Notes under the pieces: model-generated
The model's database searches: none
Told to the model about the DNA's origin: nothing
What the model saw: only the letters and a program-made list of their open reading frames with translations
Program-made: the position numbers and the translations under genes
Part shown: piece by piece, positions 5,038 through 32,019 of the stretch
How positions within the stretch are numbered: the first letter of the stretch is position 1
How the letters are laid out: every line of letters starts with the position of its first letter
From: Planctomycetota bacterium
Lineage (GTDB): Bacteria > Planctomycetota > Phycisphaerae > Sedimentisphaerales > Anaerobacaceae
Direction: 5' to 3'
Length of the DNA stretch: 34,130 nt
Assembly: GCA_030641115.1 (NCBI GenBank)
Contig: DAOWID010000486.1
Location: forward strand, 1-34,130

Positions 5038-5868
5038 TTGGGGCTGTCCTGCTTGATGTATTCATTTAAGAATAGTTGTTCGATGGAACCGGAGAGGGGA
5101 TTGAGACAGATGCGTGGCGCTGCGGGCAAGACGCCGGCATGGTTGATCTGGATTCTGGCCGTTCTGCTGCTGGTATCGGCCGGGGTAGCCTACCGCATTC
5201 CGGCACACCACTTGAAGCTGCTTGGTGAGGCCCCGATTGCGCTTCCCGTCCCTCTGAGCGATTTCCCCATGCAGATCGGCGGTTGGAAAGGCAGCGAGCT
5301 GTCCATTCGCGCGACTACCAGGGAGTATATGGAGGAACACTTTGCGGACGATTTTTTCAGCCGACGATACGTCAATTCTGCCGCCAAACTCTGGGCGGAC
5401 GTCTATGTGGTATATTGCTCGACGCGGCCGGGCGGCATATTGGGCCATCGGCCTCGGGCATGCTATCCGGCGCACGGCTGGCTGCACGATGGCAGCGAAA
5501 CATCGCAATTTACCTCGCAAGCCGGGCGGCAAGTAGCTTGTCTGATACATCGATTCCACAAGCCGCCTCCGGTGCACGACGAGAAGGTTGTCTTGAGCTT
5601 TTACATCTTGAACGGCGAGATTACGACGAATGAAGGGGATTTCTCCGGGGTTTTTGGTCGAAGACCTAATCTTGCCGGTGATCCGGGTCGATATGTGGCT
5701 CAGGTGCAAATAAGCTCGCCGCTGGAGAGTTCGGTCATAAAGGCGGCTGAGGGTATAGCGGACCTCGTGTTTGACTTCCTGCCGGATGAAAACGGCCGAG
5801 TCAGATCAAGTGGAAACATCAAGCCGCGAAGCGGCGACGGGGAAAGCAAACCGCGGAGCGGCGGCTAA
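5038..5868 (+). CDS. epsI: EpsI-like exosortase-associated protein (true start probably ATG 5110)
   Basis: N-terminal TM (AWLIWILAVLLLVSAGVAYRI), 'FPMQIGGWKGSEL', 'VYVVYCSTRPGGILGHRPRACYPAHGWLHDG': typical EpsI/DUF3485-type motifs. Confidence 0.75.
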   Translation: MGLSCLMYSFKNSCSMEPERGLRQMRGAAGKTPAWLIWILAVLLLVSAGVAYRIPAHHLKLLGEAPIALPVPLSDFPMQIGGWKGSELSIRATTREYMEEHFADDFFSRRYVNSAAKLWADVYVVYCSTRPGGILGHRPRACYPAHGWLHDGSETSQFTSQAGRQVACLIHRFHKPPPVHDEKVVLSFYILNGEITTNEGDFSGVFGRRPNLAGDPGRYVAQVQISSPLESSVIKAAEGIADLVFDFLPDENGRVRSSGNIKPRSGDGESKPRSGG

Positions 5869-21247: not shown

Positions 21248-23242
21248 ATGGCTAAGCACTGCGGAAGTAAACAAAGTATAAAAGCTATTATCCTTGCCGG
21301 TGGCTGTGACTTTGGGCGTTGTCAACTCGCGGGACGGTTGCCGGCTGCTTTGTGGCCGGTGGCGGGAAGGGCTGTGCTGGAGCGGCTGCTGGTTTCCTTG
21401 GCTGATCAGGGGATAGGCAGGGCGGTAATCTGCTCCAGTGGTGGGGCTTCTTTGCTGGCCGAATCGATCCAGGTTGACGGGTGTATGGAACTGGAATTCC
21501 TGGACGAGTCCCTGCCGGTAGGGACTGCGGGGGCCGTTCGTGACGCCGCGGGCAGCGAGAAGGACGGCTTGTTTCTCGTATTTCCCGCGAGCGTGGTGTG
21601 TCCGCCGAAGATAGACGTGCTGTTGGACGCGCACCGCCAGGGGCAATCTGACTTGACTGTGATGTTCAATCCCGCTGGCCAAAACGGCCGGGCGATGGGG
21701 GAGGCCAGTGGTATCTATGTTTGTAACAGCGCTGTCCTGGAGCTTATTCCGAAGGCGGGCTATTTTGATATCAAGGAGGGTTTGATTCCCGAGATGCTGC
21801 GTGTCGGCAAAGGCGTTCACGCCGCGGTGTTGCCCGTGCACGCCGGCAATTTTCGGGATCGGCGAGAATACCTGGACGCTGTTGGCAATTACCTTCAAAG
21901 CGGTGCAAGACCGAATACCGATTTGAGAACCTGCGAACGGAGAGATTCGCAAAACGTATGGATAGCAGCCAGCGCCAAAGTGCATTCGGCGGCGAGGATT
22001 TACGAGCCGGTGGTTATTTTGGACGGCGCCAGTGTTTCAGACGGCGCGGTCATCATCGGGCCGACGGTTTTAGGGAGCAACGTTAATGTCGGCAAGGACG
22101 CCGTGGTAGTAAATAGCGTGGTCTGGGACGGCGCCCAATTAGGTCCGAATTGCCGCGTTCAGCGATGCCTGGTTGATTATCAGGCTGTTGTCCGGGCCAA
22201 TGCTATCGTGCAAGAAGAATCCAAATTAATTAGACGTGAGAGAGCTTTGAAGGGCTCGATCGGAAACGTATTAGGACTTGCAAAAGAGAAGATGAGCGGA
22301 TTGGATCGCCCGTTGCGGCTGCGGCTCGCTAAGATTAGCAAAAGAATGTCGAATTGGGCCGGGGCCGGCAGGAAGAGGCCCATTATGTTTCTTGGAGCCG
22401 CCCTTGTCCTGATTGCCTTCCTTTGGTCTTACAGGCCGGAGTTAGCAGGTCTTTGGGGCTTATGGCAAAGAAGCGACGAATACTCGTCCGGCCTTTTGGT
22501 TCCTTTCTTAGCGGTCTATGTCTTATGGACGAGGCGTCACGATATTGCTCGGTGCGAGATAAGGCCTTGCGTTTTGTGGGGTCTGTTTGCCTTCGTGGGG
22601 GCGCAGGCGTTCAGACTTTTCGGGCTGTTCTTTATGTACGGCTCAGCAGAACGATTGTCTATTGTTCTAAGTATCGGAGCGATCGTGTTACTGCTGTTTG
22701 GCTGGCGCCTTCTCAGGAAAGTGTTTACTGTATTGTTGTTCCTGTTCCTGATGGTGCCCTGGCCCAACCGGATTCAAGGTGCTCTCACACTTCCCCTGCA
22801 GAGCTGGGCCACCTCATCGGCTGTGTTCTGCCTGGAGATGGTAGGGTACGACGTGGTGCAACACGGCAATGTTATCGACATGGAAGGGACAGTGGTCGCG
22901 GTCGCTGAGGCGTGTAACGGCTTGAGAATGGTCACCGCTTTCTTCGTGATTAGCGGCTTGGTTGTGCTGCTGGTCAAACGAGCGTGGTGGGAAAAACTAA
23001 TCGTTCTTGCCTTGAGCCTGCCTGTGGCGCTGCTTTGCAACACGGTGCGATTAGCGATTACCGCAATAGCTTTTACGATGCTCGACGGTGAGCAGTGGGA
23101 GGGAATATTCCACGATTTTGGTGGCTATGCAATGATGCCATTGGCCCTTGCGGCGATGGTTGCTGAGCTATGGCTCCTGAGAAAACTTACGACGGTTCCG
23201 ACGCAACAGGAAGCCATAGTAATTACACGGCAAGATGGGTGA
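21248..23242 (+). CDS. Fusion: degenerate nucleotidyltransferase-like domain + left-handed beta-helix + exosortase
   Basis: N-terminus 'IKAIILAGG...ALWPVAGRAVLERLLVSLADQGIGRAVICSSGG...LPVGTAGAVRDAAG'; LbH hexapeptides 'ILDGASVSDGAVIIGPTVLGSNVNVGKDAVVVNSVVWDGAQLGPNCRVQRCLV'; exosortase core 'SDEYSSGLLVPFLAVYVLWTRR', catalytic 'VAEACNGLRMVTAFFVI' (Cys), 'LCNTVRLAITAIAF' (Arg), 'FHDFGGYAMMPLAL' (His). One open frame of 664 codons. Confidence 0.88.
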   Translation: MAKHCGSKQSIKAIILAGGCDFGRCQLAGRLPAALWPVAGRAVLERLLVSLADQGIGRAVICSSGGASLLAESIQVDGCMELEFLDESLPVGTAGAVRDAAGSEKDGLFLVFPASVVCPPKIDVLLDAHRQGQSDLTVMFNPAGQNGRAMGEASGIYVCNSAVLELIPKAGYFDIKEGLIPEMLRVGKGVHAAVLPVHAGNFRDRREYLDAVGNYLQSGARPNTDLRTCERRDSQNVWIAASAKVHSAARIYEPVVILDGASVSDGAVIIGPTVLGSNVNVGKDAVVVNSVVWDGAQLGPNCRVQRCLVDYQAVVRANAIVQEESKLIRRERALKGSIGNVLGLAKEKMSGLDRPLRLRLAKISKRMSNWAGAGRKRPIMFLGAALVLIAFLWSYRPELAGLWGLWQRSDEYSSGLLVPFLAVYVLWTRRHDIARCEIRPCVLWGLFAFVGAQAFRLFGLFFMYGSAERLSIVLSIGAIVLLLFGWRLLRKVFTVLLFLFLMVPWPNRIQGALTLPLQSWATSSAVFCLEMVGYDVVQHGNVIDMEGTVVAVAEACNGLRMVTAFFVISGLVVLLVKRAWWEKLIVLALSLPVALLCNTVRLAITAIAFTMLDGEQWEGIFHDFGGYAMMPLALAAMVAELWLLRKLTTVPTQQEAIVITRQDG

Positions 23243-23266: not shown

Positions 23267-25582
23267 ATGAATAATCTGGAAAAGTATCTCGATCAGGTGA
23301 TTGTGCAAAGGTCTGCTAATGCCAATCTTGGAGTACCGCAGATGCGGCCTGAGTCCGCCTCTGATGCTGAGCCAACAGTGAACGTACTGGGTGGCTTGCT
23401 TCGCCGCTGGCATATTGTGCTGCTGACATTTCTGGTATTGTGCGCGGCTGGAATCCCGGCGATCTGGCTGTTGATCGAACGGTCCTACACAGTAACCGGC
23501 GCAATAAGGGTTGCTCCAATTCTAACAAGTATCCTCACTGGAGAAGAAGAGGTATATGGAGGCACACAGGTTTATCAAAGCTTTCTATACAGCCAGGCAG
23601 CCATGGTCACCAACGCCCGAGTGCTACAAAGAGTAGCGAGCGATTTGGCCGATAAAGAGTTGAAGTTTTTTGAAGACCGGACGAACAGGCTTGCCATGAA
23701 ACTGCAGAGACTAAATCCCAAAGATGTAAAGCCCGAGCCGGCAGACGTGCTGAAGGAGGCGATATTAGAGGAAGTCATCACGGTCGCGCCGGTCCGAAGG
23801 GGTGAGCACATTTTAGTGAGTATGAAGTGGACCGACGCCGAAGAGGCAAAGATGATTGTAGATGCTTTCATCCGGCTCTACATAGCTGTCGAAGTTACCA
23901 GCGCTGAGGAAAAAGAGATGCAAGGCCTGGGTGTCCTGCAAAGCGAAGAAAGACTTCTCTCCGGAAAGCTGGACAGTTATCGGGCTGACATCTTTAAACT
24001 GGCAGAGGAGTATGGCTCAAAGAAGCTGGACAGCCGTTACGATATGAATTTGCAGCGTGTCGGCAGTTTGCTGGCACAACTCACCGAGGTGGAGGCGAGG
24101 AGAATCTATCTGGAAACCCAGGTTAAGCTGCTCGAACAGACACACGAAGAGACCGTCCCGCTGCAGGAGTGGGTGAGCATACGCGAGGACTACGTAAACA
24201 AGGACACGGCGGTGCAGGTGCTGACCAGCAGTATTGTCGCATTAGACCAGGAGCTCATTACCGACATACAGACTTTGGCTGCCACCAATCCCCAGATTAA
24301 GCAGAAAGAGGAGCTGCTGAAGATATTAAGAACGCGCCTCATTGAGCAGAAGGAAAAAACACGTGAGGCTTTCGCAGAGTTGATGAAAGAAGAAACAGCA
24401 AGCCAGAGCAAAAAGAAGCTGGCTGACCTGAAGGTGACATTGGAGCAGACACAAGCGCACGAAACAGAGCTTCGCAACCTGCTGAGCAAAGAAGATACTC
24501 AGACTATTAATCTTGGCCAAAAGAATCTGGCCATTCAGGACCTGGAGGACAAGCTGGCGTTCACCAAAGAGATGTATGATAAGATCTCCAGGCGCATTGC
24601 GGAGTTCGAAATGGAACGAAAGCGTCCTGCGAGGATCACTGTTGGTTATGACGCTGACATAGCCGGGATCCGGGACAAACGGGCAAAATACACAATGGCG
24701 CTTATTTTCGGCTCGATGGCTTGCGGAATGCTGCTGGCCTTCCTCAGAGAAAAAGCCGACCATAGTCTGCGCACACCTGACGATGTAGTCGAACGTATTG
24801 GTCTGCGAATAATCGGGACTACCACCAGCACCCACACGATCAAGCCGGCTCGTCTTACGGAGCACGTAGCTGAAGACTACCAAACCATCCGTGCCAATTT
24901 GGGTCTGCTTGACGGCAATGGAATGCCCAGGAATCTGGTTGTCACCAGCCCTGGTATGCGGGAAGGCAAGACCACTTTCGCCATCAATTTGGCCATAAGT
25001 GTGTCGAAGTCCGGGAGAAGGGTCTTGCTTATAGACGGTGACCTGCGGAACCCCAATATTGCGTCTTTATTGGGCCTTCCGAAAGGATCACGAGGCCTTC
25101 AGGACGTGCTCTTGGGGAAAGGACTGCACCAAGCTGTTTATTCTGTGCCTCAAAACGGCTTGGATGTCCTCGCTGCTGATTCGGGCAATACAGCCGATGC
25201 CTTCGAATTGTTGGCGTCTTCCCTGACGGCTCAGCGGCTAAATGAAATCAGCCAAAGCTATGACCACGTAATTATCGATACACCTCCTGTGCTGGCCTTT
25301 GCCGATGCCCTTATATGGGCTAAATCTGCAGACGCCGTTATATTGACCAGCTTCGCCGGGCAGACTACGGGCCCCGACCTGAAAAAGGCGAAGGAACGGC
25401 TGGCCCAAATAAATGCCAATGTGCTGGGTACTGTCCTGAGTAATGTCGAAGTTGGTCATCGTTATTACCCCTATGGCTACGACTACACGCGAAATGTCCG
25501 TTCAAAGACAAATGCCAGGCAAGCCCACAGGAAGATGCTGCTGCCGATGCAAACCCCGAAGCCTAAAGCCGACAGTTCTTAG
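23267..25582 (+). CDS. Wzc-type polysaccharide co-polymerase fused to BY-kinase (Wzz/GNVR + CpsD-like)
   Basis: Wzz-type N-terminus with TM and coiled coil; Walker A 'VVTSPGMREGKTTFAINLA', 'VLLIDGDLRNPNIASLLGL', 'HVIIDTPPVLAFADALI'; C-terminal Tyr cluster 'HRYYPYGYDY'. Confidence 0.92.
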   Translation: MNNLEKYLDQVIVQRSANANLGVPQMRPESASDAEPTVNVLGGLLRRWHIVLLTFLVLCAAGIPAIWLLIERSYTVTGAIRVAPILTSILTGEEEVYGGTQVYQSFLYSQAAMVTNARVLQRVASDLADKELKFFEDRTNRLAMKLQRLNPKDVKPEPADVLKEAILEEVITVAPVRRGEHILVSMKWTDAEEAKMIVDAFIRLYIAVEVTSAEEKEMQGLGVLQSEERLLSGKLDSYRADIFKLAEEYGSKKLDSRYDMNLQRVGSLLAQLTEVEARRIYLETQVKLLEQTHEETVPLQEWVSIREDYVNKDTAVQVLTSSIVALDQELITDIQTLAATNPQIKQKEELLKILRTRLIEQKEKTREAFAELMKEETASQSKKKLADLKVTLEQTQAHETELRNLLSKEDTQTINLGQKNLAIQDLEDKLAFTKEMYDKISRRIAEFEMERKRPARITVGYDADIAGIRDKRAKYTMALIFGSMACGMLLAFLREKADHSLRTPDDVVERIGLRIIGTTTSTHTIKPARLTEHVAEDYQTIRANLGLLDGNGMPRNLVVTSPGMREGKTTFAINLAISVSKSGRRVLLIDGDLRNPNIASLLGLPKGSRGLQDVLLGKGLHQAVYSVPQNGLDVLAADSGNTADAFELLASSLTAQRLNEISQSYDHVIIDTPPVLAFADALIWAKSADAVILTSFAGQTTGPDLKKAKERLAQINANVLGTVLSNVEVGHRYYPYGYDYTRNVRSKTNARQAHRKMLLPMQTPKPKADSS

Positions 25583-25682: not shown

Positions 25683-27419
25683 ATGAACCTGATTATCGTA
25701 CATAAGAACAAAGACTTGCCTGCCGGTGACAATGACAGTTTACTTCGGTTTGCTATTTCCAGCGAGCCTTTGGCCGGTGTTGTTCTCGACGGATTGAGCA
25801 AGGGCCTGTCATGGGGTCAGAGCAGCGTTTCTGCTTTGCGCCGTTTTGCAAAACGGGCTCACGCCGGGACGATTTGCGCCGTCCCGGAAGGCTGGGGCAT
25901 TGAGCCTCACACGACCCAAACGGCACATATAATGCCTTATGCAGGGAAAGTACCCATCCGCTCACAGTCCGTACGGAAGGCCAAACGAAATTCATGGTTT
26001 GTTGTTTCCGACGGGCGATTTGTCACGCACATTAACAATGATCTGCTCGCGAACATACTGGCCACGACTCAGGTGGATGTGGTGGCGGTCAATGCGGAGT
26101 CGGAGTTGTTGGCGGCCCGCGAGAAAATACGGCTGACAGTCCAAGGCAAGGTGGCGGGTTTCCGTCGATTATACGACGATTCCGCTGAATTGGCGCCTCT
26201 TCCTCTTGATTGGCCTCATCACCTTTTTGTCAAGACTAATATCCTTGACCAGGTCCTGGATGATTGGGCTTTGCCTGAGTCATTCTCCAGCGTCCTGGAG
26301 AGGTGCCGGTCACACGGTTTGACGCTGCAGGCGGTCAATGTGGCTGGGCTCGCGCTGGACCTGGAAACTGAAGATGGATTACTGAATTTTTGTAGGGCCG
26401 GCGTTCGTTCGTCGCCTTGCGGCTCTTACACACGAATTGCCCAGGGCAGTTGTAATCCGGCCGTGGTTCACAACCGCGAGGCAGACCGAGAGCCAAGATT
26501 GGTTGGGAAAATCCTGTTGGGAAAAAATGTTCGTATCGGCTCGGATGTTGTCATAGTAGGCCCGACCATTATCGGCAATAATGTCAGAATTGAACGAGGA
26601 TCTGTCATAAACTCATCAATCATCGGACCGCAAGTTCACATACCGCAAGGTCAAATGCTCCAGAACTGTATTGTAAAAGGGCCACAATACTGCGGGAAAG
26701 ACCCGACCGGATCCAAAAGTTGCATTTCAACACAGGTTAGCAGCCATAAGGTGGAGTTCGGACGCCGGGAATTTACCAGTGACATTTTCCGCAGTTGGGG
26801 GATATTCTCCTACGCAGGACGCTTCAAGCGAATGGTTGACTTTCTCGCCGCGGTAATTGTGCTCGCTCTATTCGCGCCGATAACGCCTTTTATCGCGCTG
26901 GCGATAAAGCTGAATTCGCCGGGGCCGGTGTTTTACAAAGATAAGCGCCAGGGATTGCACGGAAAAGCATTCAACTGTTGGAAATTCAGGACAATGCACA
27001 CAGGATCTGAGAGCATACAGGAAAAGCTGCGGGTTGTCAGCCAGGTTGACGGCCCACAATTCAAAATCAAAGATGATCCGAGAATCAGCACCGTTGGCAG
27101 ATTCCTGCGGGACACGTATATCGATGAGATTCCTCAGTTCCTCAATGTTCTTCTCGGTCAGATGAGCGTCGTTGGCCCGAGGCCCTCTCCCGAATCGGAG
27201 AACACATTGTGCCCATCGTGGCGTGACGCCCGGCTGTCGGTCAGGCCGGGAATTACGGGACTTTGGCAGGTTTATAGAACACGTAAACCTGAGCAAGACT
27301 TTCAGGAATGGATCTATTATGACACCGAATATGTCCGAAGGCTGTCTCTGAGGACGGACCTGCGGATATGCTGGCGGACAATTAAGAAGATGGTTCGGAG
27401 TTTCATTAGTCAGTTCTGA
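25683..27419 (+). CDS. Fusion: nucleotidyltransferase-like relic + left-handed beta-helix + bacterial sugar transferase (undecaprenyl-phosphate phosphoglycosyltransferase)
   Basis: LbH 'ILLGKNVRIGSDVVIVGPTIIGNNVRIERGSVINSSIIGPQVHIPQGQMLQNCIV'; PGT domain 'AGRFKRMVDFLAAVIVLALFAPITPFIALAIKLNSPGPVFYKDKRQGLHGKAFNCWKFRTM', 'FLRDTYIDEIPQFLNVLLGQMSVVGPRPSP', 'RPGITGLWQV'. Confidence 0.9.
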   Translation: MNLIIVHKNKDLPAGDNDSLLRFAISSEPLAGVVLDGLSKGLSWGQSSVSALRRFAKRAHAGTICAVPEGWGIEPHTTQTAHIMPYAGKVPIRSQSVRKAKRNSWFVVSDGRFVTHINNDLLANILATTQVDVVAVNAESELLAAREKIRLTVQGKVAGFRRLYDDSAELAPLPLDWPHHLFVKTNILDQVLDDWALPESFSSVLERCRSHGLTLQAVNVAGLALDLETEDGLLNFCRAGVRSSPCGSYTRIAQGSCNPAVVHNREADREPRLVGKILLGKNVRIGSDVVIVGPTIIGNNVRIERGSVINSSIIGPQVHIPQGQMLQNCIVKGPQYCGKDPTGSKSCISTQVSSHKVEFGRREFTSDIFRSWGIFSYAGRFKRMVDFLAAVIVLALFAPITPFIALAIKLNSPGPVFYKDKRQGLHGKAFNCWKFRTMHTGSESIQEKLRVVSQVDGPQFKIKDDPRISTVGRFLRDTYIDEIPQFLNVLLGQMSVVGPRPSPESENTLCPSWRDARLSVRPGITGLWQVYRTRKPEQDFQEWIYYDTEYVRRLSLRTDLRICWRTIKKMVRSFISQF

Positions 27420-27475: not shown

Positions 27476-30400
27476 ATGCCAAGGAGATACTTTAACTGGA
27501 AATTGGCGATTGTTCTGGTGGTTGGTCTGGCTGTTTTGTGCGTGACGGCCTTTGGGCTGCGCCAATGGCAGAAAAGCAACAGGGCCGAGCGGGGACTTGT
27601 CCTTGGAAACAAGGCATACGAAGAACGAAGATATGAGGATGCTGCACGACATCTGGGCAGATATATTGGTGTTCATCAGGATGACGTGCCGGCATTGCTG
27701 AAATACGCCGATGCGCAGTTGAAGATAACACCTCTCAAGCAAAACAATGTTCGGCAGGCTATAGCGACTTATCACATCGTTTTGAGGGCGGACCAGGCCA
27801 ATTCCGAAGCTGCTACACGGCTTATCGAACTGTATTTATCAATGCGTATGCCCGGTGAGGCCGAGTTAATCGCAAAGAAATGCCTCGACACGACCCAGAA
27901 TCCGGAAGTCCGCATACTGTTGGCGACGGCGATGGCCCGTCAGCGAAAGCTCAATGAAGCCGCAGCAGAGCTCAAGAGCATCATAACCGAAGATCCTAAT
28001 CAGGTATTGGCCTACCAGGCATTAGGGCAACTCACAGAGCAATTTCCTGGTGACTTCGCAGAACCCGCAGAACCTCCCGAACATTGGTACAATGAAGCGG
28101 TGAAGAATAATCCCTCCACGGCTTTGGCCTATTTAGCCCGTGCGGCTTTTTATCTGAGGGCCAAAAATGATCCTAATGCACTGGTTGATCTGGACAAGGC
28201 TGCGACACTGGATCTGTCTGAATCTGCGGTCAGGTTGGGCCTTGCGAAAGGGTTCATTGCCGCGGGCGCTTTGGACAAGGCGGAGGAACAGCTTAAGGCT
28301 GTACAAGAGGTCGAGCCGACAAATCAGTCCCTCTGGCAGACCTGGGCCGGCCTTGCCCTGAAATCGCAGTCGCAGGAAAAGATGGCCGAAGTAGCTGAAA
28401 GGGGATTAGAGAGCCTCGCTTATCAACCCTGGGATTTTATGCTCGTGGCCACGGAACTCTTTATCCGGGGCGGTGAGCTTGACAGGGCCACTGATTGCAT
28501 CGCCAAACTGGACCAGAAGGATATAGACCCTGCGATGGTTGCCTTTTTGAGAGGTCTTGTAGCCAGCGAAAAGGGGGACCAGCATGACGCCGTGAAATAT
28601 TGGCAGCAGTCGAGGGAGTTAGGTAATAAATCCCTGCAGGTTCAGTTGGCGGTGGCATCGGCTCTATCGGCTTTGGGTGATACTCAGTCGGCACTTCGGC
28701 AGTTGCGCATGTTTGTCTTCGAAAGGCCTGATTCGTTCGAGGGACATCTAACTTTGGCCAAGCTGTTAGCCAAAAGCGGAGATTGGACCGGGGCGGCAGA
28801 ATACGCCGATAGAGCGCGACAACTTTCGCGGAAAAGTATCGAGGCTGCTTTGTTGTACTGGCAGGCCCGCGCACAGTTGTTGGCGGCGCGTCCTGCAGAG
28901 GAAAACGCCCCGATGTGGGAGGAAATAGACAGACAGTTGGTTTTGCTGGAAGATACTGCCGATGATGTTCTTCAGGTTAGATTATTGCGGCTCCAGGTTG
29001 CACTCCAACGGGGTAAATTCGCCGAAGCTCAAGGGTTGTTAGCTCAACTCAAAGAAGAGTATCCATCACATTTTAGAATTGCTATGGCTGAAGTTGGATT
29101 GCTTGTAGCTCAGGAGAAGGAAGATGAAGTAATCCCGATGTTGAACAAGACGATAGAGGATTTTCCTGAAGCTGTTGAGCCGGTTACCTTCCTTGCGCTT
29201 TTGCTGGATGAGCCGGACAATCACGAGGAATGTGAAGCGGTTATTAAAGAGGCTTTGGCGCGCATTGAGGGACCTCCGGCCCGCTATGATTTGACCATGC
29301 TGCTTGTGCAGTTTTACGGCCAGTGGGGTCAAGTGGACAACGCTTACCGCTTGCTTAATGCCCTCTCTCAGCAGAAGCCCAACAATATTCCCATAAAACG
29401 TCGACTCCTGAGCAGCGAGCCTGTTATTAAGGACCCTGAAAGGGCCCAGCAGCTCGTCGATGAAATCAAGGCCCTTGAGGGTGAGGGCGGTTGGCAATGG
29501 CGATATGAACAGGCGAGAGTCTGGTATAACGGCGGCGATTTCAATAGCCGTTGTCCCCAGATCATTCCGCTTCTGCAGGAAAATCTGTTGGCTAACCAAG
29601 ATGATCAGGCAAGCCGGAGGCTCCTGGCTGCGACGTACGAACGAAGTGACCGCTTACAGATGGCACTGTCGGCATACCGTGAGGCCCTGAGCAGGTCGCC
29701 CCAGGATATTCGGCTTATTGCCGGCACGGTCGGGGCGCTTTACAAGGCACAAGAATATGAAGAGGCCGAGGAGATTTTGAACCGTGTTTCCAAAGAAGGG
29801 CTTTCCGATCCGGCACTTCAGCAACTGCAATATGAAGGTTACCTCAGACGTGGTCAGTTGGGATCGGCAACGGATATCTTGCAGGATTACCTCGGCACTG
29901 ACCCCAATAACATTTCCGCCGGCTTGTCTCTTGCACTGTTGAAGATGCAACAAAACGACTTTGACGAGGCGCGTAAACTGCTGGACGACCTGCGGGCCCA
30001 GGAACCCAATTCACTGCCGATAATGTTCGCACAGATCCAGTTGAATGTTCGTGCGGACAAACCTGATGAGGCGTTGAAGCTGTGTGACCAGATAATAGGC
30101 AATCTTAACAATGCTTCGGCTTATGTCATCCGCGCCAGAACGCATGTCGCGCTTGGGCAAGCCGAGAAGGCAATAGAGGACTTTAACCGTGCCGTAACCA
30201 TCGACCCCAACGGTGCTGGTGTATGGGTGGCCAGAAGTGACTTCTACAGTGCCACAGGCCAATCAGAAAAGGCGATGACCGATATAGAACAGGCTCTTTC
30301 TCTCGACCCGAACAACATCCAGATTCAAAGACGCGTTATCGCCTTGTTCCTGGCATCAGGCAGACCCGACAAAGCTCAGCAGGCAAGAGCTATTCTCGAC

Positions 30401-31657
30401 CGGGCTCTAAAATCCAACCCTGCCAATAGCATGTTGAAGCTGCTCAAAGCACAAGCGCTGCTTGCCGAAGGAACGGCTCCGGCTATTGATGGCGCTGTGC
30501 AGATTCTTCGGAGGCTTACAGAGGATCAGCCCAGAATCAGTGGTGCTTGGGCGTTGTTGGGGGAAATCCTGCTAAGGCAGGGACTGCCGGGTGAGGCTAT
30601 AGACACTGTTCTGCAAGGCCTTGTCTATAATACCAAAGACAGAACGCTGCTTATCCTGAAGGCCCGTGCCGAGGCAGCCAGGTCACCATTCTTGGCGATT
30701 GCCACTCTCAAGCAGCTAATGACTCTGGACCCAAACGACGTAGGTGCGGCGATGCGCCTGGCCGACGCGTACATCGCAACAGGGGAGCCTGACAAAGCGG
30801 TAAATCTGCTTAGAAGACTGGTGACCACTTGCGATACGTCCGATCGACGCGGATGCAGTATTGGCTTGGCTGTTGCGCTGTACAGCAACGACAGCAAGGC
30901 GGAAGCTCAGAAGGAATTTGATTCTCTGGTCCAAGCCGAGCCCAATGACCCGGCTCCTCTATTGGCGCAAGTGCAGTTGTTCGAGGGGGACAAGCTCTGG
31001 GGCGAGATAGAGCGCAAGGCCGTAGATTGGTATCAGAAGCATCCCGAAGATATTCAGACGCCTCTTTTTGTTGCCAGGCGTCTGGCCGCAGTTGAGGACA
31101 CCGCCTCAAGGAAGACCGCCGAGAACATACTTAGGATGGTGCTCAAAGATCATCCCGAAGATGTTGAAACAATGAGCACCCTTGCGATGCTCATGCAGCT
31201 CGTGGAGCGCAGCGATGAGGCGGCCAAACTTTACCGGCGCGTGCTCGAAGTTCGCCCCGATGATGTGGTCGCTATGAATAATCTGGCTTGGATTCTGTGT
31301 GAAGACCAGGAGAAACATCAAGAAGCGTTTGAGCTTGCTCAGAAAGGCTTGAAGATACTGCCGAACTATGTTGATCTGATCGATACGCGCGGCATGGTGT
31401 ACTACCGAATGGGTGAATTCGACAAAGCCGTCCAGGATTTCTCTACCTGCATAAAGCTCTATCCCAGCGAGACGAGCGTTGTCACTGCTTCACACTTTCA
31501 CCTGGGAAGAGCCTTTGCCAAGCTCAACCAGACGGATAAGGCAGTTGAGAGCTTAAACAAAGCTTTGAACTTGAATAGCGAAGCTGGGGGCTTATCGACA
31601 GCAGACTTGGCCGACGTAAAGCGTTTGCTTGAAAAGCTATCAAAAGAAGGAGGTTAA
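27476..31657 (+). CDS. Large membrane-anchored TPR-repeat protein (PEP-CTERM/PrsT-type EPS-associated)
   Basis: N-terminal TM 'WKLAIVLVVGLAVLCVTAFGL' then many TPR-like helices across 1393 aa (e.g. 'AEKAIEDFNRAVTIDPNGAGVWVARSDFYSATGQSEKAMTDIEQALSLDPNN'). Confidence 0.88.
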   Translation: MPRRYFNWKLAIVLVVGLAVLCVTAFGLRQWQKSNRAERGLVLGNKAYEERRYEDAARHLGRYIGVHQDDVPALLKYADAQLKITPLKQNNVRQAIATYHIVLRADQANSEAATRLIELYLSMRMPGEAELIAKKCLDTTQNPEVRILLATAMARQRKLNEAAAELKSIITEDPNQVLAYQALGQLTEQFPGDFAEPAEPPEHWYNEAVKNNPSTALAYLARAAFYLRAKNDPNALVDLDKAATLDLSESAVRLGLAKGFIAAGALDKAEEQLKAVQEVEPTNQSLWQTWAGLALKSQSQEKMAEVAERGLESLAYQPWDFMLVATELFIRGGELDRATDCIAKLDQKDIDPAMVAFLRGLVASEKGDQHDAVKYWQQSRELGNKSLQVQLAVASALSALGDTQSALRQLRMFVFERPDSFEGHLTLAKLLAKSGDWTGAAEYADRARQLSRKSIEAALLYWQARAQLLAARPAEENAPMWEEIDRQLVLLEDTADDVLQVRLLRLQVALQRGKFAEAQGLLAQLKEEYPSHFRIAMAEVGLLVAQEKEDEVIPMLNKTIEDFPEAVEPVTFLALLLDEPDNHEECEAVIKEALARIEGPPARYDLTMLLVQFYGQWGQVDNAYRLLNALSQQKPNNIPIKRRLLSSEPVIKDPERAQQLVDEIKALEGEGGWQWRYEQARVWYNGGDFNSRCPQIIPLLQENLLANQDDQASRRLLAATYERSDRLQMALSAYREALSRSPQDIRLIAGTVGALYKAQEYEEAEEILNRVSKEGLSDPALQQLQYEGYLRRGQLGSATDILQDYLGTDPNNISAGLSLALLKMQQNDFDEARKLLDDLRAQEPNSLPIMFAQIQLNVRADKPDEALKLCDQIIGNLNNASAYVIRARTHVALGQAEKAIEDFNRAVTIDPNGAGVWVARSDFYSATGQSEKAMTDIEQALSLDPNNIQIQRRVIALFLASGRPDKAQQARAILDRALKSNPANSMLKLLKAQALLAEGTAPAIDGAVQILRRLTEDQPRISGAWALLGEILLRQGLPGEAIDTVLQGLVYNTKDRTLLILKARAEAARSPFLAIATLKQLMTLDPNDVGAAMRLADAYIATGEPDKAVNLLRRLVTTCDTSDRRGCSIGLAVALYSNDSKAEAQKEFDSLVQAEPNDPAPLLAQVQLFEGDKLWGEIERKAVDWYQKHPEDIQTPLFVARRLAAVEDTASRKTAENILRMVLKDHPEDVETMSTLAMLMQLVERSDEAAKLYRRVLEVRPDDVVAMNNLAWILCEDQEKHQEAFELAQKGLKILPNYVDLIDTRGMVYYRMGEFDKAVQDFSTCIKLYPSETSVVTASHFHLGRAFAKLNQTDKAVESLNKALNLNSEAGGLSTADLADVKRLLEKLSKEGG

Positions 31658-31659
31658 TT

Positions 31660-32019
31660 ATGCAGCAATTTCCAAGATTAGTGACCGAAGATGTTGGCAG
31701 GGGGGATGGACCATATCAACGCCCCAAACTCATACTGCTTGACGACAAGCATTGGTCGTATGTCCAGAGACGCTACCATATCAGTCCACGCGAACTTGAA
31801 GTGGCCAAGCTTGTCTGCCACGGTCTGAGCAACAAGGAAATAGCAGAGGCCCTGAGTATAAGGCACGGGACCGTAAAGACTCACATAAAAAATATTTACC
31901 GAAGGATCCACGTCAAGAATAAGGTCGCGCTCCTGCTAAGGTTCATGGCTGATGTGAGCAAGCTTCTGAGCGAGTCTTCCGGCAGAGCTATTGTTCCAAT
32001 CGTGGATGCCGAGGCCTGA
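31660..32019 (+). CDS. LuxR-type HTH transcriptional regulator lacking a receiver domain
   Basis: 'ISPRELEVAKLVCHGLSNKEIAEALSIRHGTVKTHIKNIYRRIHVKNKVALLLRF'; ATG 2 nt after the TPR gene stop, SD (GGAGG) inside the TPR gene's last codons. Confidence 0.9.
   Translation: MQQFPRLVTEDVGRGDGPYQRPKLILLDDKHWSYVQRRYHISPRELEVAKLVCHGLSNKEIAEALSIRHGTVKTHIKNIYRRIHVKNKVALLLRFMADVSKLLSESSGRAIVPIVDAEA

Follow-up and report, generated by a model that had tools for sequence, protein, structure and literature searches.

Exosortase genes have long been noted inside EPS (slime polysaccharide) loci, and to our knowledge the physical reason for this is not known. A gene at positions 21248-23242 of the 34,130-nucleotide stretch of DNA analyzed here (the window, in which all features described below lie on the forward strand) raises the question in a concrete form, as it appears to join an exosortase to a soluble module with a nucleotidyltransferase (NTase) fold and a left-handed beta-helix (LbH). 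Is this fusion genuine, what are its parts, and could it link protein sorting to polysaccharide synthesis?

Architecture and conservation of the fused gene

The gene is a single open frame of 664 codons, running from ATG to TGA with no internal stops, exactly where the original prediction had placed it. As delimited by the open frame, Pfam, and a structural model, its 664-aa product consists of a pseudo-nucleotidyltransferase, an LbH, a linker, and an exosortase. The pseudo-nucleotidyltransferase domain spans aa 9-218 (21272-21901) and is identified by Pfam NTP_transferase, PDB profile matches, and Foldseek, and the beta-helix, with its hexapeptide repeats, follows at aa 237-325 (21956-22222; PF25084, PF00132, and PF24894, and a high-confidence beta-helix in the model). 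A variable basic linker, recognized by its charge, partly low pLDDT, and the weakest purifying selection, covers aa 326-385 (22223-22402), and the exosortase core takes up aa 386-650 (22403-23197). Pfam matched the 664-aa protein to Exosortase_EpsH at aa 389-644 (PF09721, E=1e-55), to LbH_EIF2B, the best LbH model, at aa 235-325 (E=4e-13), and to NTP_transferase at aa 12-142 with a score barely over the gathering score (E=8e-5); across 48 fused homologues, these domains were found in 48/48, 47/48, and 38/48 proteins, respectively.

An AlphaFold2 model of the 664-aa protein, built with the 48 fused homologues (mean pLDDT, 79.7), contains confident NTase (residues ~8-218) and LbH (235-325) modules and an exosortase bundle (~376-648), with low confidence in the linker at 331-350 and 366-374. 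The top Foldseek PDB matches of this model were NTase-LbH proteins, namely 8x7s, plant VTC1, human GMPPA and GMPPB, and eIF2B, and the same order of a Rossmann-like NTase and then an LbH was found with PDB profiles, AlphaFold2, and Foldseek. Domain searches and structural modeling, both proposed as checks in the original prediction, therefore recovered a three-part architecture that we consider well supported, and they bore out the LbH hexapeptides that had been read from the letters. At aa 331-377 the linker is net positive in 47/48 homologues (mean, +5.2) and directly precedes the first membrane helix, which points to a position on the cytosolic side for the N-terminal module and agrees with the earlier suggestion of a soluble cytosolic domain.

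Such a fusion could be mimicked by an error of annotation or assembly, or by internal initiation near 22347 that yields two separate proteins from a single message, and an in-frame ATG at codon 367 is indeed preceded by AAAAGA. However, the source genome contains a second full-length copy of the fusion (59% identity), located in a further cluster with the same layout, and a class-wide search returned full-length fusions with 39-66% identity from some thirty genomes within the same family and order. Among GTDB species genomes, the fusion was found in one frame at 58 of 75 named loci, nearly all of them in Planctomycetota, and it persists down to ~37% identity to the 21248-23242 protein; the conservation in several independent genomes that the original prediction had looked to for support is thus in place. 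The 17 unfused loci comprise two cut by contig ends (L054 and L088), three without the exosortase (L069, L071, and L072), one that looks frameshifted on a low-coverage contig (L073), one that is split (L100), and ten that form a separate stand-alone group. Because the frame is uninterrupted in dozens of independent genomes, an assembly chimera or frameshift is ruled out. ATGs do occur in the linker of 29/44 homologues, but their positions are scattered, and we therefore found no conserved internal start; the start codon near 22347, which the original prediction had named as one possible refutation, is not conserved among the 44. We give an artefact or internal initiation next to no probability.

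In close pairs, dN/dS was 0.15-0.41 for the NTase, 0.13-0.35 for the LbH, and 0.09-0.21 for the exosortase, and the linker, which is variable among homologues, was under the weakest purifying selection. By this measure, the three folded parts are all under purifying selection. Two individual loci deserve mention. At L100 (10372-12680), AGSKQQ-like low-complexity repeats, inserted both in the coding sequence and between genes, split the fusion into two open reading frames. L080 is a contig from a Pelotomaculum metagenome-assembled genome that carries the fusion; its sequence is nested among Phycisphaerae and groups with a Phycisphaerae sequence, and it is probably a binning error or contamination.

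The nucleotidyltransferase domain and the exosortase core

The original prediction described the N-terminus as nucleotidyltransferase-like. The fold held up in Pfam and Foldseek, but the loss of the catalytic residues had gone unnoticed. The catalytic-Lys position is K in 1/48 homologues and the metal-Asp position is D in 1/48, each being replaced in the other 47, and the motif DFGRC at aa 21-25 (21308-21322; D in 46/48, F in 45/48, G in 43/48, R in 43/48, and C in 44/48) occupies the position of the GxGTR signature loop. An authentic NTase encoded in the same genome, taken as a control, reads LAGGKGTRLLPYTTTIPKPLVPV and MNGDILTD, with GKGTR..PK and NGD present, whereas the corresponding stretches of the fused family are LxGxRDFGRCPLASRLPTALWPV and VFPAS. 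The loss of GxGTR, the PK Lys, and the NGD Asp rules out an active sugar nucleotidyltransferase, and with substitutions at the GxGTR Arg, the Lys, and the metal-binding Asp alike, neither the phosphate site nor the metal site is likely to survive. The canonical motifs were also absent from all of the stand-alone and divergent relatives examined.

The substitutes are themselves conserved: the fused NTase carries DFGRCP, GTAGC, and GYxDIKE, with GTAG retained, and the last of these motifs, recognized in the alignment and reading GYFDIKE at aa 171-177 (21758-21778), also occurs in the stand-alone relatives. Over the signature-loop, GTAG, and GYxDIKE stretches, the mean top-residue frequency was 0.78 versus 0.54 for the rest of the NTase domain, a comparison in which the third stretch (GYxDIKE) was picked after seeing the alignment, for its conservation. 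When the stretches were shifted circularly through 210 positions, a mean of 0.78 was reached only without a shift. Judged from its alignment, the NTase of the fusion is a pseudoenzyme with a constrained active-site region.

The exosortase passes the family cut-offs over its full core (PF09721, 189 bits versus 25.7; TIGR02602, 141.6 bits versus 105.55). The Cys, Arg, and His already singled out in the original prediction correspond to the predicted nucleophile Cys556 (22913-22915) and the predicted catalytic residues Arg601 (23048-23050) and His622 (23111-23113), all three invariant in 48/48 homologues and presumably on the outer side, as established family models would have it. No specific Xrt class was reached with NCBIfam (XrtD, 174.5 of 400; XrtW, 155.9 of 425; XrtA, 148 of 208), and the chain ends after the exosortase core, with no C-terminal EpsI domain found in the 664-aa protein by Pfam or NCBIfam. 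The source genome has ~20 PEP-CTERM matches over cut-off and two further exosortases. PEP-CTERM content does not track the fusion, as such proteins were found in 48/48 genomes examined, fused or not, many of which also contain another exosortase.

The EPS operon and the origin of the fusion

The exosortase sits in an EPS cluster. The next gene (23267-25582) encodes a Wzc-like chain-length determinant/BY-kinase (TIGR01007, 130.9 bits, over cut-off), and beyond it lie genes for a phosphoglycosyltransferase (PGT; 25683-27419), a PrsT-like TPR protein of the exosortase/PEP-CTERM system (27476-31657; TIGR02917, 336 bits, over cut-off), and a LuxR-type regulator (31660-32019), which has weak LuxR/NarL-type matches and a homologue in the same place in many relatives. 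An EpsI-like exosortase-associated protein is encoded by a separate gene of the same EPS cluster (5038-5868; TIGR02914, E=6.5e-8, below cut-off). Among fused loci with enough flanking sequence, Wzc is directly downstream in 47/51, the PGT is present in 44/45, and the PrsT-like TPR protein is present in 37/39. Gene order therefore lends strong support to the link between the fusion and EPS synthesis raised in the original prediction, and it suggests, for a group of Planctomycetes, a physical connection between protein sorting and the EPS machinery.

The NTase-LbH (NT-LbH) module does not depend on the exosortase for its place in this order. Stand-alone NT-LbH relatives likewise precede Wzc and the PGT (L099, L101-L105, and L107-L109). 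L069, L071, and L072 are nested in the fused clade, yet they have NT-LbH alone at the same place, and the exosortase was therefore secondarily lost there; L148, which groups with L069 in the tree, also has NT-LbH at this place and no exosortase. L143 encodes the NT protein, exosortase, EpsI, Wzc, and PGT in neighboring but unfused genes. Since the module precedes Wzc and the PGT with or without an exosortase, it is tied more tightly to them than to the exosortase, and it belongs originally to the EPS-initiation operon. In one locus the frame runs further still: at L062 (2-4153), the exosortase stop is lost and the frame continues into Wzc, giving an NT-LbH-exosortase-Wzc open reading frame of at least 1384 codons.

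The PGT is itself a fusion. Its 578-aa product combines an NTase-like part (~25683-26426), an LbH (~26490-26678), and a monotopic phosphoglycosyltransferase (~26811-27407; PF02397, E=2e-60). By hhalign, its N-terminal half is colinear with the exosortase module (11-317 versus 13-336; probability, 99.4), with the score coming mostly from the LbH and the NTase-like part aligning at low identity. In Foldseek searches with its AlphaFold2 model (pLDDT, 80.0), the catalytic part matched PglC and the remainder matched NTase-LbH proteins. The PGT thus carries its own, diverged NTase-like/LbH module that is related to that of the exosortase. NTase-LbH-bearing PGTs are conserved beside Wzc across Planctomycetota.

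In the NT-domain and exosortase-domain trees, the order-wide fusions and a more distant family (f58) group together, forming one clade in the exosortase tree (support, 95/92), whereas family f19 (L138-L141) stands apart from them. A single clade of all fused exosortases was rejected by AU tests (P = 0.003, and P = 0.012 without the longest branches), with a caveat for long branches that applies to both values. The trees, which have long branches, suggest at least two separate fusion events, and the f19 fusions probably represent one such separate event. These divergent NT-LbH-exosortase fusions are followed by EpsI, Wzc, PGT, and TPR genes, and the N-terminus of the f19 PGT is a soluble domain with no match to the profile. 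In the 608-codon frame of L142, an unassigned N-terminal region of ~278 aa is followed by an exosortase (279-500).

Possible roles of the fusion and related systems

Our preferred reading, to which we give a slightly better than even chance, is that the fusion is a cytosolic EPS-initiation scaffold or regulatory module that tethers the exosortase, siting PEP-CTERM sorting at EPS assembly. The dead NTase and the LbH would lie in the cytosol, and the flexible basic linker would connect them to the inner membrane, where the full-length exosortase resides. LbH domains usually oligomerize, and LbH-mediated assembly of the modules could give a cytosolic platform made of homotrimers or of mixed assemblies with the PGT. 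Such a platform may organize or regulate the first EPS step, and PEP-CTERM processing by the exosortase fused to it would then take place at the EPS assembly site. The mechanism, including oligomerization, contact with the PGT or Wzc, colocalization, and any ligand, is inferred. In Myxococcus, a small partner protein regulates the EPS-initiating PGT posttranslationally (PMC12802240), and regulation of the first EPS step is therefore plausible here. It is also conceivable, if rather doubtful, that the dead NTase-LbH modules on the exosortase and the PGT co-assemble through beta-helix contacts and sense a nucleotide sugar, which would confine surface-protein sorting to the sites and times of EPS priming; if true, this would be a coupling device not described before.

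The main rival, close to the sugar-sensing idea of the original prediction, is a nucleotide-sugar sensor, in which the dead NTase binds an EPS precursor (e.g., an NDP-sugar) and gates the exosortase or the PGT allosterically via the LbH. Within the NTase, conservation peaks in the stretches equivalent to the active site and GTAG is kept, and the top structural matches include GMPPA/GMPPB, of which GMPPA is a noncatalytic precedent; however, substitutions have removed the GxGTR Arg, the Lys, and the metal-binding Asp, and one of the three conserved stretches was chosen for being conserved. We regard a sensor as unlikely but not far-fetched. Alternatively, the fusion may be passive, a stop codon having been lost between operon neighbors while both halves work as before, without functional coupling. 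The persistence of the module without the exosortase at four loci, the fission seen at L100, the L062 read-through that likewise adds Wzc in frame, and the variability of the linker would all fit such an origin, but the maintenance of the fusion to ~37% identity, its seemingly repeated appearance (at least 2 times), and the full conservation of the exosortase after the linker make it quite improbable. A conserved fusion to an EPS-initiation module, apparently made more than once, turns a shared sorting/polysaccharide complex into a directly testable question.

Described exosortase fusions are to EpsI and to CAAX-protease-like domains (Haft 2006, PMC1569441). We found no exosortase-nucleotidyltransferase or exosortase-left-handed beta-helix fusion in the open-licence literature, and no NCBIfam or Pfam model searched names the architecture as a family, in line with the original remark that no such fusion was well described. 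The folds are individually known; what is new, within the reach of these tests, is their combination, the operon logic, and the paired PGT. The protein resembles EpsH/XrtA, XrtD, and XrtW in its full core, its Cys/Arg/His, its EPS locus, the nearby EpsI and PrsT-like genes, and the genomic PEP-CTERM proteins, but it falls below all class cut-offs and adds the N-terminal NTase-LbH.

This module shares its fold and domain order with GMPPA/GMPPB and VTC1/KJC, systems in which a dead NTase-LbH acts as a regulator; GMPPA, a noncatalytic NTase-LbH, binds GDP-mannose and inhibits GMPPB (PMC11228364). Here, in contrast, a membrane enzyme is attached to the module, and DFGRCP replaces the signature loop. 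The gamma and epsilon subunits of eIF2B similarly combine a degenerate NTase with an LbH, which in eIF2B serves multisubunit assembly, although eIF2B is a translation factor without a membrane enzyme. A bacterial family of NTase-LbH pseudoenzymes thereby joins the eukaryotic ones (GMPPA and eIF2B). The term Bi-PGT is in use for monotopic PGTs that are fused to functional domains (PMC10942596). The 25683-27419 product shares a PglC-like core with bifunctional monotopic PGTs and PglC/WbaP, but where large PGTs have a four-helix bundle and a DUF, it has an NTase-like/LbH N-terminus. At another locus (L137; G023:C20), an exosortase-type NT-LbH, identified by a profile match, is fused straight to a PGT in a 703-codon frame.
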